This document shows, in pieces, positions 16,993-53,766 of a stretch of DNA of 64,000 bases (its first letter is position 1; each line of letters begins with the position of its first letter). The notes beneath the pieces were generated by a model, which did not search any database, was not told the DNA's origin, and saw only the letters and a list, made by a program, of their open reading frames with translations. The translations under genes were made by a program, and so were the position numbers. The DNA is from Eubacterium coprostanoligenes (GTDB lineage: Bacteria; Bacillota; Clostridia; Oscillospirales; Acutalibacteraceae): positions 1 through 64,000 of the forward strand of contig NZ_FUWW01000005.1 of NCBI RefSeq assembly GCF_900167205.1. The letters run 5' to 3'.

Positions 16993-17028
16993 AATTAATA
17001 AATATATTATATAAATAGCAAAAAAGGC

Positions 17029-17057
17029 TTGATTTTTCAGGTCTTTTTTGTTATAAT
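17029..17057 (+). promoter_or_regulatory. SigA promoter of rpsB-tsf
   Basis: TTGATT at 17029-17034 and TATAAT at 17052-17057 are separated by 17 nt. Transcription would start near 17064, giving a leader of about 110 nt that contains the structure at 17093-17160. Confidence 0.75.
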
Positions 17058-17092
17058 GCTAACGCATTCGTAAAAAAGAAAGCGAATTCGCA

Positions 17093-17168
17093 CACAATGA
17101 GGTTGAGCCAAAGGTTACAAAATCGGCTCTTGCCATACTTCATTGTGGAGGATTAACCTTAAAGGAGG
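17093..17168 (+). promoter_or_regulatory. Structured rpsB leader, candidate S2 autoregulatory pseudoknot
   Basis: CACAATGA (17093-17100) pairs with TCATTGTG (17140-17147), 8 bp. Inside it GAGCC (17105-17109) pairs with GGCTC (17125-17129). The loop segment AAGGTTA (17111-17117) is complementary over 7 nt to TAACCTT (17154-17160), which directly abuts the AAAGGAGG ribosome binding site at 17161-17168. This is a pseudoknot placed to control access of the ribosome, as expected for an r-protein autoregulatory leader. Rfam assignment not checked. Confidence 0.6.
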
Positions 17169-17176
17169 AAATGAAA

Positions 17177-17914
17177 ATGGCAAATGTAGTTTCTATGAAA
17201 CAGCTTTTAGAAGCAGGTGTACACTTTGGTCACCAAACAAGAAGATGGAACCCTAAAATGGCTGAATACATCTTCACAGAGAGAAATGGTATTTATATCA
17301 TCGATCTTCAAAAGACAGTAAAGAAGTTGGACGAGGCTTATATGTTCGTTCGTGATCTCGCAGCAGAAGGCGGAAGCATTATCTTTGTCGGTACAAAGAA
17401 GCAGGCTCAGGAGAGCGTTAAGGAAGAGGCTATCCGTTGCTCAATGCCATATGTAAATGCAAGATGGCTTGGCGGTATGCTCACAAACTTCAAGACAATC
17501 CGTGGTCGTGTTGCTCGTCTTGCTCAGCTCAAGAAGATGCAAGAGGACGGCACATTCGATCTTCTTCCAAAGAAGGAAGTTGCAGGTCTTGAGCTTGAAA
17601 TCGAAAAGCTTGAGAAGTACCTCGGCGGTATCACAGAAATGAAGAAGATTCCTGATGCAATGTTCATCGTTGACCCACGCAAGGAAAGAATCGCTGTATC
17701 AGAAGCAACAAAGCTCGGTCTTCCAATCGTTGCTATCGTTGACACAAACTGCGATCCTGATGAAATCGACTATGTAATTCCTGGTAACGACGACGCTATC
17801 CGTGCAGTAAAGCTTATTGCAGGTGCTATGGCTAACGCTGTTATTGAGGGTAGAGACGGTGCTGATGCAGTTGCTCCTGAAGAAGCTCCTGCAGCAGAAG
17901 AAGCAGCTGAATAA
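17177..17914 (+). CDS. rpsB: 30S ribosomal protein S2
   Basis: A component of the small ribosomal subunit near the mRNA exit site, 245 residues. Family motifs are [49 protein letters not shown], and a GNDDAIRA / DTNCDPD region. An ATG at 17171 is only 2 nt from AGGAGG, so the ATG at 17177, 8 nt away, is chosen. The tail is Ala/Glu rich. Codon use is strongly biased (AAG for Lys), as for a highly expressed gene. It is followed by tsf after 45 bp, the usual order. Confidence 0.96.
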
Positions 17915-17959: not shown

Positions 17960-19075
17960 ATGGCATTTACAGCACAAGATGTAAAGGCTCTTCGTGAGAA
18001 GACCGGCGTTGGTATGATGGAGTGCAAAAAGGCTCTCGTTGAAGCTGACGGCGATATGGATAAGGCTATCGATTTCCTTCGTGAAAGAGGCCTTGCAGCT
18101 GCACAAAAGAAGGCATCAAGAATTGCCGCTGAAGGTGTGGTTCTCCCTTACTATGACGAAACTGCAAAGAAGGGTGTTGTCCTTGAGGTAAATTCAGAAA
18201 CAGACTTCGTTGCAAAGAATGAAAAGTTTATGTCTTTCGTAGAAGGCGTTGCAAAGACAATCCTTGCAACAAATCCTGCCGATGTTGAAGCTCTTAAGGA
18301 AGAGAAGTTCAACGGCACAGACAGAACTGTTACAGAAACACTTAATGACCTCGTTCTTGCAATCGGTGAAAATATGAAGGTTCGCCGTTTTGAAAGAATG
18401 GACGGTATCGTTTCAACATACATCCATGCCGGCGGCAGCGTTGGTGTTATGGTTGGTTTTGATGTTGCAGACGAATCAAAGGCAGCTGATCCTGAATTTG
18501 TAGCTATGGGCAAGAATGTTGCTATGCAAATCGCAGCTATGAATCCTGAATATTTGAGCAGCGACGACATCTCTGCTGAAGAATCAGAGAAGATGCACTC
18601 AATCACTGTTGACAGTGCTCTCAACAAGCCTGATTCACTTCCTATTCCAATCCTCAGCAAGCTTATCGACGAAGCTATCAACGATAAGAAGTGGACTGAT
18701 GAAGACATCACAATTTATCAGGGCCTTGACAATAAGCAAAGAAAGAACTTCACAAACTTCATTTCAAAGGAAGCTCTTGAAATCCTTGCAGGCATCGCAG
18801 TTTCACACAAGGACGAAATCGTTGATAACAAGATTTTCACAGGCCTTGTAAAGGGCAGACTCCAGAAGCAAATCAAGGAAGTTTGTCTTCTTGAGCAAGA
18901 CTTCGTTCGTTCAGATCTCTTCCAGGGTTCAGTTGCAGGCTACATTGAAAGCGTTGCAAAGACTCTCGGCACAGAAATCAAGGCAACAAACTTCATCCGT
19001 ATGATGAAGGGCGACGGCCTCGAAAAGAGAGAAGAAAACTTCGCAGAAGAAATTGCAAAGCAAATCAACGGCTAA
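17960..19075 (+). CDS. tsf: Elongation factor Ts with an internal insertion
   Basis: Exchanges GDP for GTP on EF-Tu. The N terminus has the UBA-like domain (LREKTGVGMMECKKALVE), then the TDFVAKN motif that contacts EF-Tu (about 81-87). The protein is 371 residues, some 65-75 longer than usual. Extra sequence lies at about residues 222-296 (KPDSLPIP through VDNKIF), between the MNPEYL motif and the conserved GRLQKQIKEVCLLEQ. It is rich in charged helices. GGAGG lies 8 nt before the ATG at 17960. Similar insertions seem to occur in other Ruminococcaceae, from memory. Confidence 0.95.
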   Translation: MAFTAQDVKALREKTGVGMMECKKALVEADGDMDKAIDFLRERGLAAAQKKASRIAAEGVVLPYYDETAKKGVVLEVNSETDFVAKNEKFMSFVEGVAKTILATNPADVEALKEEKFNGTDRTVTETLNDLVLAIGENMKVRRFERMDGIVSTYIHAGGSVGVMVGFDVADESKAADPEFVAMGKNVAMQIAAMNPEYLSSDDISAEESEKMHSITVDSALNKPDSLPIPILSKLIDEAINDKKWTDEDITIYQGLDNKQRKNFTNFISKEALEILAGIAVSHKDEIVDNKIFTGLVKGRLQKQIKEVCLLEQDFVRSDLFQGSVAGYIESVAKTLGTEIKATNFIRMMKGDGLEKREENFAEEIAKQING

Positions 19076-19098
19076 TTAACCGTAAATTTAATAAAAAA

Positions 19099-19146
19099 TC
19101 ATCGCTTGAAACTCTCTGCTTTAGGGGCTTTCAGGCGATTTTTTAT
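19099..19146 (+). terminator. rpsB-tsf terminator
   Basis: The stem ATCGCTTGAAA / TTTCAGGCGAT has an 18-nt loop and is followed by TTTTTT. Confidence 0.75.
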
Positions 19147-19281
19147 GCTATTTTCCGACTACACAAAAATTTATAAATGGTTGAAATATGTTTGTTTCAA
19201 AAAAATAGATTTGTAAATCGGACTGATTTAAAAATATAAATTTAAATTTATATTTTTACGCCAACATTTTTTTCAATAGTG

Positions 19282-19373: not shown

Positions 19374-22300
19374 ATGAAAAAAGTTATCAGCCTATTATTA
19401 TCACTTTCTTTGATTTTCTCTGTCGGCTTGCCCGGTACTCTGGTTAATGCCGCAGAAAGCATCACTATTTATTATAATGATGCGGAACTTACTGAAACCT
19501 TGCACATCACCGAATACGATTCTGCACAGTTGGTCGCTCATTCGGAGTCGGAACTTCCGGCAGGCTCTACTGTTGAGTGGGAAAGCAATATGCCTTTGCT
19601 TGCGGATGTTGATGAAACAGGCGAGGTAACTGCGTACGATTACTCAAAAGCTGCCGTCATCAAATATTGGCTTGATAATGAGGTCCGCCCAACTCCACTC
19701 ATCGGTAATGTAACCGCAGACGCTATTGAAAAGGCTTTTGCAAACGCGGGGATCGACCTTAATGACAGTAACCTCAATACAGAATTGGTTGTTGCTATTG
19801 TAAAGGGCATTAACCAAACCATGGGTGAATCTCTCGAAAAAATGCTGAATAATATGACAATCACAATCACTGCAAGACTTGTCAACGAAAGCGGAAAAGT
19901 TCTTGCTTCCGACAAGGCAGAGATTGCTGTTGATCAAAGTTTAGCAGGTAATATATGGCCTACGGGTGTACATATCACAAACAAAAAGACTGTTCCGAAA
20001 ACTGTTGCTGTCGGCAAGCAGGTGCAAATGTACGGTGCCGTAACTCCTGTTCGACTTAAGCAAAGTGTTAAATGGAGCGTCGGCAAGGCTCTTGATACCG
20101 AGTCAAGGAAGCACGCAACAATTACCTCCGACGGTCTTGTAACCTTTACTTCTCCGGGTACTGTTTATATTCGTGCAAATCCCGACAACGCTCTTTATTC
20201 TGCGGTTACAGATACTGTTGAATTTAAGGTTGTTTCTCGTGAAGAACTTCCTGTTACCGATTTTTCAATCGGCGGAACTCTTGATATAAAAGAGGGCGAA
20301 ACTTCACAGCTTACTATCGAAAATGCTTCTCCTGCCGGTGCATACACAGGCGATGTAAAGTGGGAATGTTCGGATTCGTCAGCCGCTGTCATTACTCAAG
20401 ACGGTGTTGTTACTGCTCTTGATGCAGGTCAGGGCTTGCAGTTATCAAAAACTGTAACCATCACGGCGACAATTGACGGCGTTTCAAAAACAGCTTCGCT
20501 AAAAATTAACAGAAATATTATCGGCGACAAAATCAACAGCGTTGAAATCAACGGATATGAAAATATTGCACTTAACGAAACAAATAAGTATACTGCCGAT
20601 GTGACCCCTGTAAGACTTAACACAAATACAGGCGTTGTGCGTCAGTGGGGATTATATGATTCACAGTCGGGCGAGCTTGTGCTTGCAACGGCAGACACTC
20701 CTGCCGATAACGGTTTTGCTTCGATTGATTCCAACGGCAATCTTGTTGCAAGAGAAGTCGGAATAATCAAAATCTATGTTAAGGTGTCTTATAATGACAC
20801 TTCGCTTGAAGCCGAAAAAACCGTTTCATCGGGTGTTCCGATTACAAGTTTTTCTTTGTCAAAAGGCAACGGCTTTACTACAAATATTTTGACAGGCAGT
20901 AGGGACTCGTTCCTTGAAGAGGGTAAGACAGGTCAGCTTAATATCACAAACATTTTGCCGGAAGGTTATGACCCTGATTTGCTCAAGAATGTTGTTTGGA
21001 AAAGCTCCGATCCGTCTGTTGCATCTGTTGATGAAAATGGTAAGGTTTTTGGTCTTGATTCAGGCGGACTTACAATTTATAATGCTAAATCGGTTACAAT
21101 TACTGCGATTATCGGCGGTGTGTCCTCATCTGTGACATTTAATGTCAGAGGTGCTTCTGTCAATAATCTTGTAAGTGCCTCAATTTCGGGAAATGATGTT
21201 GTTGTAAAAGACTTTCCGAGAGAGTATTCTGCAATTTTTTCTCCGTCAAGAATTAACGTCAAACATACTCATTGGGGACTTACATATGACGATGGTACTC
21301 GTCCGTGGAATTCGAGCTGGAACAGTACATCCGGCAACACAGAAAACAGCGTTGCAACAGTTGATTCAAACGGTAAGGTGTACGGAAAATCGGCAGGCAC
21401 AACAACTCTTTGGGTCTTTGGCAGAGAGGGCGCAACCTCATTAAGCGGTTCTTATGTTGAGGCTTCAAAACAAATTCAAGTTGTTGAAATTCAGCCAAAA
21501 AATATAGCCGTAACCGCACCTGAAAAATATGATTATATCGAGGGCGAAACAGAACTTGATTTGACAGGCTTAAAGGTTTCTGCAACATATGACCGCAACG
21601 AATTGGCCAATTATTATTCGGATGCAGAAAGCTATGGCGATTCTATTTTAAGTGTTGATGTTGACGATTATGAAATAAGCGGATTTGACCCAACCTTGAT
21701 TGATAGAGAGCAATATGTACTCGTAACTCTCGTCAGAGCAGGGGAGCAGTTCCGTGCTGTTTTTCCTGTAAAGGTTAATTCAAAAGCTGTTGAGTCAATT
21801 GACATTACTGCCCCAAAATATGCTTATGTTGAGGGTGTAAAACAGCTTGATTTGAGTGGATTAAAGGTATATGCAAATTACAGCAACTCACCTCGTGAAG
21901 AAGTTTTTGACTACACGGTTGACGACTCCGCTGTTGATTATTCAAAACTTGATGTGGAGCAAACGGTCAAGGTTGTTTATAAGCATTACGGTCGTTCGGC
22001 AACAGCCGAGTTTCCGATTATCATTTACGGAAAACCTGTTGTTTCTGTTGACACGGCAGATTATGACGGCTCGTGGACAGGCAAAGATGTTGCGTTCACT
22101 TTGAGCAGCACACATCAATTAGACGGCACTAAATATTATTATAATGTTGACGGTGGCGAGTGGAATGAAATTAACGGCAATTCTTTGACTGTTACTGAAA
22201 ACACAGACAGCGTATATACATTCAAAGCGATTAACAGCGCAAAGATTGAAAGCGAAATTACACAGCCGTATACTGTTAAAATTGACAAAATTGTTCCGTC

Positions 22301-24296
22301 ATTTACTCTTGTTCAGGATAATACAAACCTCACAAATCAGTCGTATTCTGTGAGAATTACAGATTTGAATATTGGTGCTTCAGGTGTCAAAGCGGTTTAT
22401 CTCAATGGCAATGAGATTGACAGTCAAACGGAATTTACCGTTACTGAAAACGGAAATTATATTGTAAAAATCGTGTCAAACAGTTTGCTTGAAAGTGAGC
22501 AGAGTATCTCTGTAAACAATATTGATACCCAAAAACCGATTGTTACAGAAATTTCAATTGCTCACAAAGACACAAACGATTTTGCAAGACTGATAAACAA
22601 AATTTCCTTTGGTCTGTTTTTCAATAAAACTACCGAGCTGACTATCAGCGCCGAGGATGTTGGCGTTGCAGGTGTTGACAGAATTGAATATCGTTTTATA
22701 GATGAAAACGGCACACCGCTCAACGATTGGGCAGTGTATGATGACAGCAACAAACCGTTACAGGACAGCGATTTTAAAGGCTATGCCGAAGCGAGAGCAA
22801 TAGACAAGGCGGGCAATGTATCCGACAGTAAGTCGACAGTTGGATATATCCTTGATGTTGAAGCTCCTACCGAGATTGTTGTCACGGCAGATGCTGACGG
22901 TGAAAATTACGAAAGCGACAGTTGGACATCAAATGATGTTACAATCAAACTTTCATCAACCGCTTTTTCGGGCATTTTCAGATATTATTATAGTCTTAAC
23001 GGTTCAGACTGGGTTGAAATGGACAGCGACACACTTGTTGTAAAAGAGCAAGGCGAATGGAATTATAGATTCAAAGCGGTGTCTTATTCAAATAACGAAA
23101 CTGTAACCGAAAATGACTTTGTTGTAAAGATTGACAAGACCGAGCCTGTTGTTCGTGTCGATTTTGAGGGTACATTTGGCAGATGGACTGCCGATGCCGT
23201 CAAGTTCAGTATGAGCATACTCAATCAGGCAATTTCAGGCGTTCATTATTATTTCAGCACCGACAACGGCAACAGCTGGATTCCTGCCGAGGAAGGTTCC
23301 GTAATCACTATTGATGAGGATGTTGACGCTTCGTACATATTCAAGGCTGTAAACGGTGCCGGGGTAGAGAGCAACTATTCCGACAGCTATCACATTATGA
23401 TTGACACCGTTGCTCCAACTCTTGAATATACACTTGATGAAAACGAAAACAATGCTTCTTCGTATAAGGCATATTACAGGGTTAATACAGGTCTTTCAGG
23501 CTTGAAATCAGTCAGTGTAAACGGCAAGGATATAACCAATTCTGATTATTTTGAAGTAACGGATAACGGCAGATATGTCGTTGTAATGACTGCAAATAAT
23601 GGGCTTACAACCACCGAAGTTATAAATGTCAACAATATTCCGGTTTCAGAAAAGCCTGTGCTTTATGTCACGCCTTCCGGAACTATCGGCAGTGAAACAT
23701 CACAAACGGTTACATTTACGCTTTCTTCACCTAATTGCAATAACGCTGTTTATTATTATAATAACGGTGACTGTTGGATACAGATTGATGGTGATACCTT
23801 TGTTATTTCAAAAGCGGGTGATTATAATTTGACCTTCAAAGCTGTTTGCGGAGAACTTGAAAGTTATCCAAGTCCGACATATAGCGTTAAATTGACGGCT
23901 GATTATTACACCGCTGTGTTCAAAACTACTGTACTCGAAAGTAAGGATTCTGATACAGGAAGCGTTGCTCTTGGTGGAGTAAAGGTCTATGTTGATGACA
24001 AATTTGTCGGAACAACAGATGATGACGGCAAGGTTAGTTGCTTGCTCAAACAAGGTGAGCATAGCGTTTTGCTTGACAACGAAACTTTTAATAGAACGAT
24101 GAAAGTTGATGTAACCGAAGATGTAGAATTTAATGCTCCTATGGTGGCACTTGACCTCAACAAGGACGGTTGTATCAACGCAAAGGATTATGTGATGATT
24201 AGAGAAATTGCTGATTCACAGCTCACTACACTCTATTCTGAAATCTTTATAAATTTCTATAACGAGTTCGACAGCACATTTTCTTATCAAAATTAA
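19374..24296 (+). CDS. Large secreted multi-domain Ig-like protein with a half dockerin
   Basis: A 1640-residue exported protein. The signal peptide (MKKVISLLLSLSLIFSVG, cleaved near NAAES) is close to that of the LRR protein at 60772. Residues about 30-700 hold repeated BIG2-type Ig domains (VSVDENGKVFGLDSG, VTALDAGQG, SVATVDSNGKVYGKSAG). Residues 705-895 hold two Big-type units that begin with IAVTAPEKYDYIEG and IDITAPKYAYVEG. Residues 895-1500 hold several repeats with YYYNVDGGEW or YYSLNGSDW and DKTEPVV, as in Ig-like domains of gut adhesins. A carboxypeptidase-regulatory-like unit (VALGGVKVYVDDKFVGTTDDDGK) precedes a single dockerin-type calcium loop, DLNKDGCINAKDYVMI, at about 1594. No catalytic domain and no wall-anchor motif were seen. 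Confidence 0.8.
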   Translation: MKKVISLLLSLSLIFSVGLPGTLVNAAESITIYYNDAELTETLHITEYDSAQLVAHSESELPAGSTVEWESNMPLLADVDETGEVTAYDYSKAAVIKYWLDNEVRPTPLIGNVTADAIEKAFANAGIDLNDSNLNTELVVAIVKGINQTMGESLEKMLNNMTITITARLVNESGKVLASDKAEIAVDQSLAGNIWPTGVHITNKKTVPKTVAVGKQVQMYGAVTPVRLKQSVKWSVGKALDTESRKHATITSDGLVTFTSPGTVYIRANPDNALYSAVTDTVEFKVVSREELPVTDFSIGGTLDIKEGETSQLTIENASPAGAYTGDVKWECSDSSAAVITQDGVVTALDAGQGLQLSKTVTITATIDGVSKTASLKINRNIIGDKINSVEINGYENIALNETNKYTADVTPVRLNTNTGVVRQWGLYDSQSGELVLATADTPADNGFASIDSNGNLVAREVGIIKIYVKVSYNDTSLEAEKTVSSGVPITSFSLSKGNGFTTNILTGSRDSFLEEGKTGQLNITNILPEGYDPDLLKNVVWKSSDPSVASVDENGKVFGLDSGGLTIYNAKSVTITAIIGGVSSSVTFNVRGASVNNLVSASISGNDVVVKDFPREYSAIFSPSRINVKHTHWGLTYDDGTRPWNSSWNSTSGNTENSVATVDSNGKVYGKSAGTTTLWVFGREGATSLSGSYVEASKQIQVVEIQPKNIAVTAPEKYDYIEGETELDLTGLKVSATYDRNELANYYSDAESYGDSILSVDVDDYEISGFDPTLIDREQYVLVTLVRAGEQFRAVFPVKVNSKAVESIDITAPKYAYVEGVKQLDLSGLKVYANYSNSPREEVFDYTVDDSAVDYSKLDVEQTVKVVYKHYGRSATAEFPIIIYGKPVVSVDTADYDGSWTGKDVAFTLSSTHQLDGTKYYYNVDGGEWNEINGNSLTVTENTDSVYTFKAINSAKIESEITQPYTVKIDKIVPSFTLVQDNTNLTNQSYSVRITDLNIGASGVKAVYLNGNEIDSQTEFTVTENGNYIVKIVSNSLLESEQSISVNNIDTQKPIVTEISIAHKDTNDFARLINKISFGLFFNKTTELTISAEDVGVAGVDRIEYRFIDENGTPLNDWAVYDDSNKPLQDSDFKGYAEARAIDKAGNVSDSKSTVGYILDVEAPTEIVVTADADGENYESDSWTSNDVTIKLSSTAFSGIFRYYYSLNGSDWVEMDSDTLVVKEQGEWNYRFKAVSYSNNETVTENDFVVKIDKTEPVVRVDFEGTFGRWTADAVKFSMSILNQAISGVHYYFSTDNGNSWIPAEEGSVITIDEDVDASYIFKAVNGAGVESNYSDSYHIMIDTVAPTLEYTLDENENNASSYKAYYRVNTGLSGLKSVSVNGKDITNSDYFEVTDNGRYVVVMTANNGLTTTEVINVNNIPVSEKPVLYVTPSGTIGSETSQTVTFTLSSPNCNNAVYYYNNGDCWIQIDGDTFVISKAGDYNLTFKAVCGELESYPSPTYSVKLTADYYTAVFKTTVLESKDSDTGSVALGGVKVYVDDKFVGTTDDDGKVSCLLKQGEHSVLLDNETFNRTMKVDVTEDVEFNAPMVALDLNKDGCINAKDYVMIREIADSQLTTLYSEIFINFYNEFDSTFSYQN

Positions 24297-53522: not shown

Positions 53523-53534
53523 ACTATCAATATT

Positions 53535-53766
53535 GAAAGGCAGTGATTAAGAGGAGTAACACCCGATTGTTTTTCAGAGAGTTGACGGTTGGTGCAAGTC
53601 AGCAGGCAGACGGTGTGAAGGTAGCTTATGAGCCGATAGGATGAAGTAGCAGTAGTTCTATCCGTATTTCTGCGTTAAGGAAATGAGTGGCACAGTCGCT
53701 ACACTGTGCAATTTGAGTGGTACCACGGATTTATTCGCCTCATATTTTGAGGCGTTTTTTATTTTT
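53535..53766 (+). promoter_or_regulatory. T-box riboswitch controlling valS
   Basis: The leader shows the stem I pieces (GAGAGTTGACGGTTGGTG and GCAGGCAGACGGTGTGAAGGTAGC), the T-box core GAGTGGTACCACGG at 53715-53728 and a terminator CGCCTC / GAGGCG then TTTTTT at 53736-53760. GTA at 53621-53623, after GAAG, is the likely specifier codon (Val). Uncharged tRNA-Val would pair with it and with the core and let transcription pass. Confidence 0.9.

Follow-up and report, generated by a model that had tools for sequence, protein, structure and literature searches.

Does the leader of the rpsB-tsf operon in Eubacterium coprostanoligenes fold into an RNA through which ribosomal protein S2 could repress its own synthesis, and is such an RNA already known? 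Experimental study of S2 autorepression has centred on gammaproteobacteria, and a review describes its mechanism in E. coli as unclear, given that the operator does not include the ribosome binding site (PMC10931766). The locus was examined within a 64,000-nucleotide stretch of genomic DNA, referred to here as the window. A prediction made from its letters placed two stems and a pseudoknot directly upstream of the rpsB ribosome binding site, and suggested that S2 binding or the pseudoknot itself blocks initiation.

Organisation of the rpsB-tsf transcription unit

The rpsB gene (S2) occupies positions 17177..17914 of the forward strand and tsf (elongation factor Ts) positions 17961..19075 of the same strand, 46 nt past the end of rpsB. 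The rpsB start was set by comparison with relatives. A start codon at 17171 was rejected because the equivalent start in relatives is 17177 and because the Shine-Dalgarno spacing would be too short. The Shine-Dalgarno sequence AGGAGG (17163..17168, + strand; AAAGGAGG corresponds to 17161-17168) lies 8 nt 5' of the ATG at 17177 and 2 nt past the 3' strand of the pseudoknot.

A sigma-70-type promoter, TTGATT-17-TATAAT with a TGn element ahead of the -10 box, was predicted at 17029..17057 on the + strand from its agreement with the consensus and its conservation, and the same promoter arrangement was found in most members of the genus. The position of the promoter puts the probable transcription start near 17064 (17063-17065), upstream of the structured element and of position 17093, where the originally predicted structure began. 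A strong hairpin leading into a T run 3' of tsf (19090..19147, + strand; z -4.31) is the probable operon terminator, and no terminator-like site was detected on the + strand between rpsB and tsf.

The region 17020-17049 holds a terminator-like inverted repeat, AAAAAAGGCTTGA-TTTT-TCAGGTCTTTTTT, which takes in the -35 box of the rpsB promoter along with most of its spacer. The repeat is present in several but not all members of the genus, and possibly represents the terminator of an upstream lipoprotein-like gene merged with the rpsB promoter. Elsewhere in the window, positions 19374-24296 encode a secreted-looking protein of 1640 aa, very long and containing numerous repeated segments, and a T-box leader (RF00230, 145.9 bits) is located at 53534-53745.

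Architecture of the leader

The three predicted helices were present exactly as proposed and with zero mismatches: 17093-17100 with 17140-17147 (8 bp), 17105-17109 with 17125-17129 (5 bp), and 17111-17117 with 17154-17160 (7 bp). The outer stem, P1, proved to extend beyond the 8 bp first described, comprising 11 bp (17093..17103 with 17137..17147, including one G-U) and an additional pair, C17091-G17148 (17091..17148), that closes a bulged A17092 and was identified by complementarity and comparison. Both strands of P1 and of the inner stem (17105..17109 and 17125..17129) were assigned on complementarity and covariation. The pseudoknot is formed by AAGGUUA (17111..17117), with the conserved core GGU at 17113-17115, and UAACCUU (17154..17160), with the conserved core ACC at 17156-17158. 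All of these elements, and those that follow, lie on the + strand.

Three further elements accompany the helices. The inner stem is followed by UGCCA (17131..17135), which was invariant in 28/28 leaders of the genus and is without an assigned pairing partner. At the 3' end of P1 lies GGAGG (17147..17151), a Shine-Dalgarno-like sequence some 12 nt 5' of the true one, found as GGNGG in nearly all leaders of the phylum and in E. coli; it could serve as a standby or recognition site. The predicted transcript opens with a lineage-specific hairpin, P0 (ATTCGT/GCGAAT, 17066..17087), the site of which is occupied in relatives by differing yet pairing stems (GCACGG/CCGTGC, GCATAGT/GCTATGC and CACAAAT/ATTTGTG, listed without statistics). 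P0 is possibly a stabiliser of the mRNA.

The minimum-free-energy fold of the single sequence was modestly more stable than that of shuffled sequences (z -1.94); as this value is only mildly unusual, the case for the structure rests on the comparative evidence. A covariance-model search found the leader once in its own genome, the next matches being short and weak.

Conservation and covariation of the helices

The regions upstream of the S2 genes found in 60 relatives were read; the genus set comprised 28 members including the window. The covariation score of the three helices in these 28 leaders was 0.539 against a shuffled mean of 0.189, was reached by 0/500 shuffles, and was at most 0.173 when the partners were slid. 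Two-sided changes were observed at 10/12 pairs of the outer stem and 3/5 pairs of the inner stem. The equivalent of C17091-G17148 was C-G in all 28 members, and was replaced by UA, AU and UG in the wider set.

A covariance model built from the two stems was then used to search the order, and 40/40 of the order-level matches fetched sit directly 5' of rpsB. The order-level alignment gave a covariation score of 0.607 against 0.177 for shuffled sequence, a value to be read in the knowledge that the alignment was fitted to the model, leans toward it and contains a few spurious matches. A model match at E up to 0.1 was obtained for 65/80 named relatives (Oscillospiraceae, Ruminococcaceae and other Clostridia, mostly metagenome bins). 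At the level of the phylum, an anchored P1 of at least 5 bp was present in 70/80 leaders, compared with 20% of shuffled sequence. In the phylum leaders the loop sequence GGUGCC leads into a short apical stem, and in the 3' part GGAGG, an A-rich stretch and AACC precede the Shine-Dalgarno sequence. Stem covariation in genus and order, together with the upstream promoter, bears out the proposal of a structured leader ahead of rpsB: both the outer and the inner stem covary and the predicted promoter is upstream of 17093, contrary to the two conditions that had been named as refuting it.

The pseudoknot was partly sustained. Its GGU/ACC core was invariant in 28/28 genus leaders; this invariance leaves no covariation there, so that the genus comparison neither supports nor weakens the core. 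In the phylum, the third pair of the core was formed in 63/81 leaders against 51.9 expected by a shuffling that does not correct for sequence relatedness (p 1.5e-4), in a test in which the anchors fix the first two pairs only, from which 36 sequences were left out and in which a few were misread. This pair was GC in 52 leaders, UA in 6, AU in 3 and GU in 2, and thus covaries. The full 7 bp is, by comparison, a feature of a sublineage. The longest uninterrupted pseudoknot was 3, 4, 5, 6, 7 and 8 bp in 4, 7, 5, 7, 4 and 1 of the 28 genus members, respectively, and the pair flanking the core (columns 29/74) was unformed in 14/28. With lengths of 3-8 bp and 7 bp in only 4/28 members, the form in the window is a local extension of a core of 3-4 bp, and its outer pairs could be partly due to chance. 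RNAalifold returned an alternative, an AGG/CCU hairpin that competes for the same ACCU as the pseudoknot, which counts against the pseudoknot model.

Relationship to the rpsB motif

The rpsB motif described by Meyer et al. (2009) combines a long P1 with P2 and P3 stems that are short or missing, and a pseudoknot links the P2-P3 junction to a 3' extension after P1; the motif occurs in alpha- and gammaproteobacteria, Cyanobacteria and some Firmicutes, the pseudoknot of the Firmicutes examples being 3 bp long (PMC2704228). The window leader lies directly 5' of rpsB, has a long P1 that covaries, and forms a pseudoknot to a 3' extension. With this motif (PMC2704228; RF01815) it shares the position upstream of rpsB, the long P1 with conserved CAC...GUGGAGG ends, and the GGU/ACC pairing to the 3' extension. 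Unlike the published motif, the window and its genus have no P2/P3 branch visible in the loop, a pseudoknot of 3-8 bp, the invariant UGCCA and the extra P0. Relatives in the order and phylum have a stem starting at the GCC after GGU that is absent from the genus loop, an absence that the published description permits. Mapped onto the motif, both stems in the window probably belong to P1, which an internal loop divides, while P2 is missing and P3 has been lost.

The leader is almost certainly the clostridial form of the S2 leader known as the rpsB motif, here belonging to the rpsB-tsf operon. The original prediction had left it unsaid whether this RNA was described in Clostridia; the kind of RNA is already known, the published motif including Firmicutes examples (PMC2704228), and the window adds a lineage variant, not a new class. 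The lineage is distinguished by a lost apical stem, the invariant UGCCA, a pseudoknot whose variable extension reaches the border of the Shine-Dalgarno sequence, and P0 at the 5' end.

The Rfam search that had been proposed returned no match at the locus at the gathering threshold. The window leader scored 24.1 bits with RF01815, below the gathering cut-off of 40, which was reached by 0/41 genus genomes; by the Rfam rule it is therefore not a member of RF01815, though its architecture and position make it an rpsB-motif RNA. RF00127 (t44; gathering cut-off 44) had no match in the window, and scored 30-33 bits in some relatives in the phylum.

Proposed regulation by S2 and alternative explanations

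In E. coli, excess S2 has been shown experimentally to repress rpsB-tsf translation through the leader, with the help of bS1 (PMC10931766). From homology to that leader, an S2-autoregulatory role in the window can be considered well founded, and S2 autorepression through the leader is probable. The explanation that best fits the locus as a whole, and which we consider likely, is an S2-autoregulatory leader whose pseudoknot, beside the Shine-Dalgarno sequence, blocks initiation on rpsB-tsf. The transcript, probably starting near 17064, folds into the bulged outer stem, the inner stem and the hairpin loop, and the GGU core of the loop pairs with ACC just 5' of the Shine-Dalgarno sequence, as conservation and covariation show. 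S2 in excess of the 30S subunits awaiting it may then bind the folded leader, as in E. coli, and would be expected to stabilise the pseudoknot. Since just 2 nt separate the end of the pseudoknot strand from AGGAGG, the folded, S2-bound leader would be inside the 30S footprint, and a direct block, by which rpsB initiation would drop, is the simplest reading. Output of tsf would presumably fall together with that of rpsB, because the two genes share an mRNA. That the block acts through the pseudoknot is slightly favoured over its not doing so; since the ribosome binding site in E. coli reportedly lies outside the operator, plain occlusion of the Shine-Dalgarno sequence is less than certain.

Other explanations of the structure fare less well. 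Chance complementarity, with which the folding z of just -1.94 would agree, is negligible given the covariation in the genus and wider set and the recurrence across the phylum, and was rejected for both stems and for the core of the pseudoknot. Attenuation of transcription, in which S2 binding would make a terminator form within the leader, is a frequent mechanism in riboswitches and in some Firmicutes leaders, and this was counted in its favour. It is nevertheless very improbable here: no terminator-like site was found on the + strand at 17058-17177, no U run follows any leader stem, and an attenuator was rejected on the grounds that the leader has no terminator. The structure might instead act on translation or mRNA stability without S2, as a constitutive fold or through another protein such as EF-Ts. 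A stabilising role would suit the 5'-terminal P0 hairpin, and reports of S2 binding for Firmicutes were not found in the literature; against this, the leader precedes rpsB in every case fetched and shares its architecture with the S2-responsive leader of E. coli, so that we regard independence from S2 as improbable.

A closer competitor accepts that the leader responds to S2 and assigns repression to another site. The pseudoknot would then mainly build the S2 site, and repression would arise elsewhere, for example by a trapped initiation complex or by a block of a standby site at GGAGG 17147-17151. The E. coli leader, whose operator is stated to exclude the ribosome binding site and to need a bulge lying far upstream (PMC10931766), points in this direction, as do the conservation of the bulged A17092 and of GGAGG at the 3' end of P1, and an ACC to Shine-Dalgarno distance that ranges across the phylum from roughly 0 to 9 nt. 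Within the genus, however, the ACC core and AGGAGG are separated by a constant 3-4 nt in 28/28 members. Repression elsewhere is rated as possible but unlikely, and S2 autorepression with the pseudoknot blocking initiation is retained as the preferred explanation.

Comparison with the E. coli S2 leader

One widespread leader is split over two Rfam models, both of which miss the tested clostridial leaders at curated cut-offs. The compact leader described here, with a pseudoknot ending 2 nt from the Shine-Dalgarno sequence, would be a good model for testing the mechanism of S2 autorepression, and its lineage features make it a useful variant for study.

The S2 leader of E. coli (t44, RF00127), which scores 83.5 bits with its own model, has the same plan and order of elements, CACACACGUAUC...GGGGUGCC...GAUACGUGGAGGCAUAACCCC, also given as CACACACGUAUC, GGGGUGCC, GAUACGUGGAGGC and AUAACCCC. 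The pseudoknot strands of the E. coli and gammaproteobacterial leader are GGGGU and ACCCC, and the operon is rpsB-tsf, as in the window. The E. coli leader differs from that of the window in having an apical stem (GCCCUUUGGGGU) and in the much greater distance between its pseudoknot strand and the Shine-Dalgarno sequence, and bS1 is reported as a co-repressor (PMC10931766). Two reported features of the E. coli system, the ribosome binding site outside the operator and the bS1 partner, fit plain occlusion poorly. In the boldest reading, which we consider rather doubtful, the leader of the genus has turned into a simpler two-stem RNA whose loop pairs just before the Shine-Dalgarno sequence, and S2 would work there as a direct occlusion switch, in a mode unlike that of E. 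coli and perhaps without bS1.
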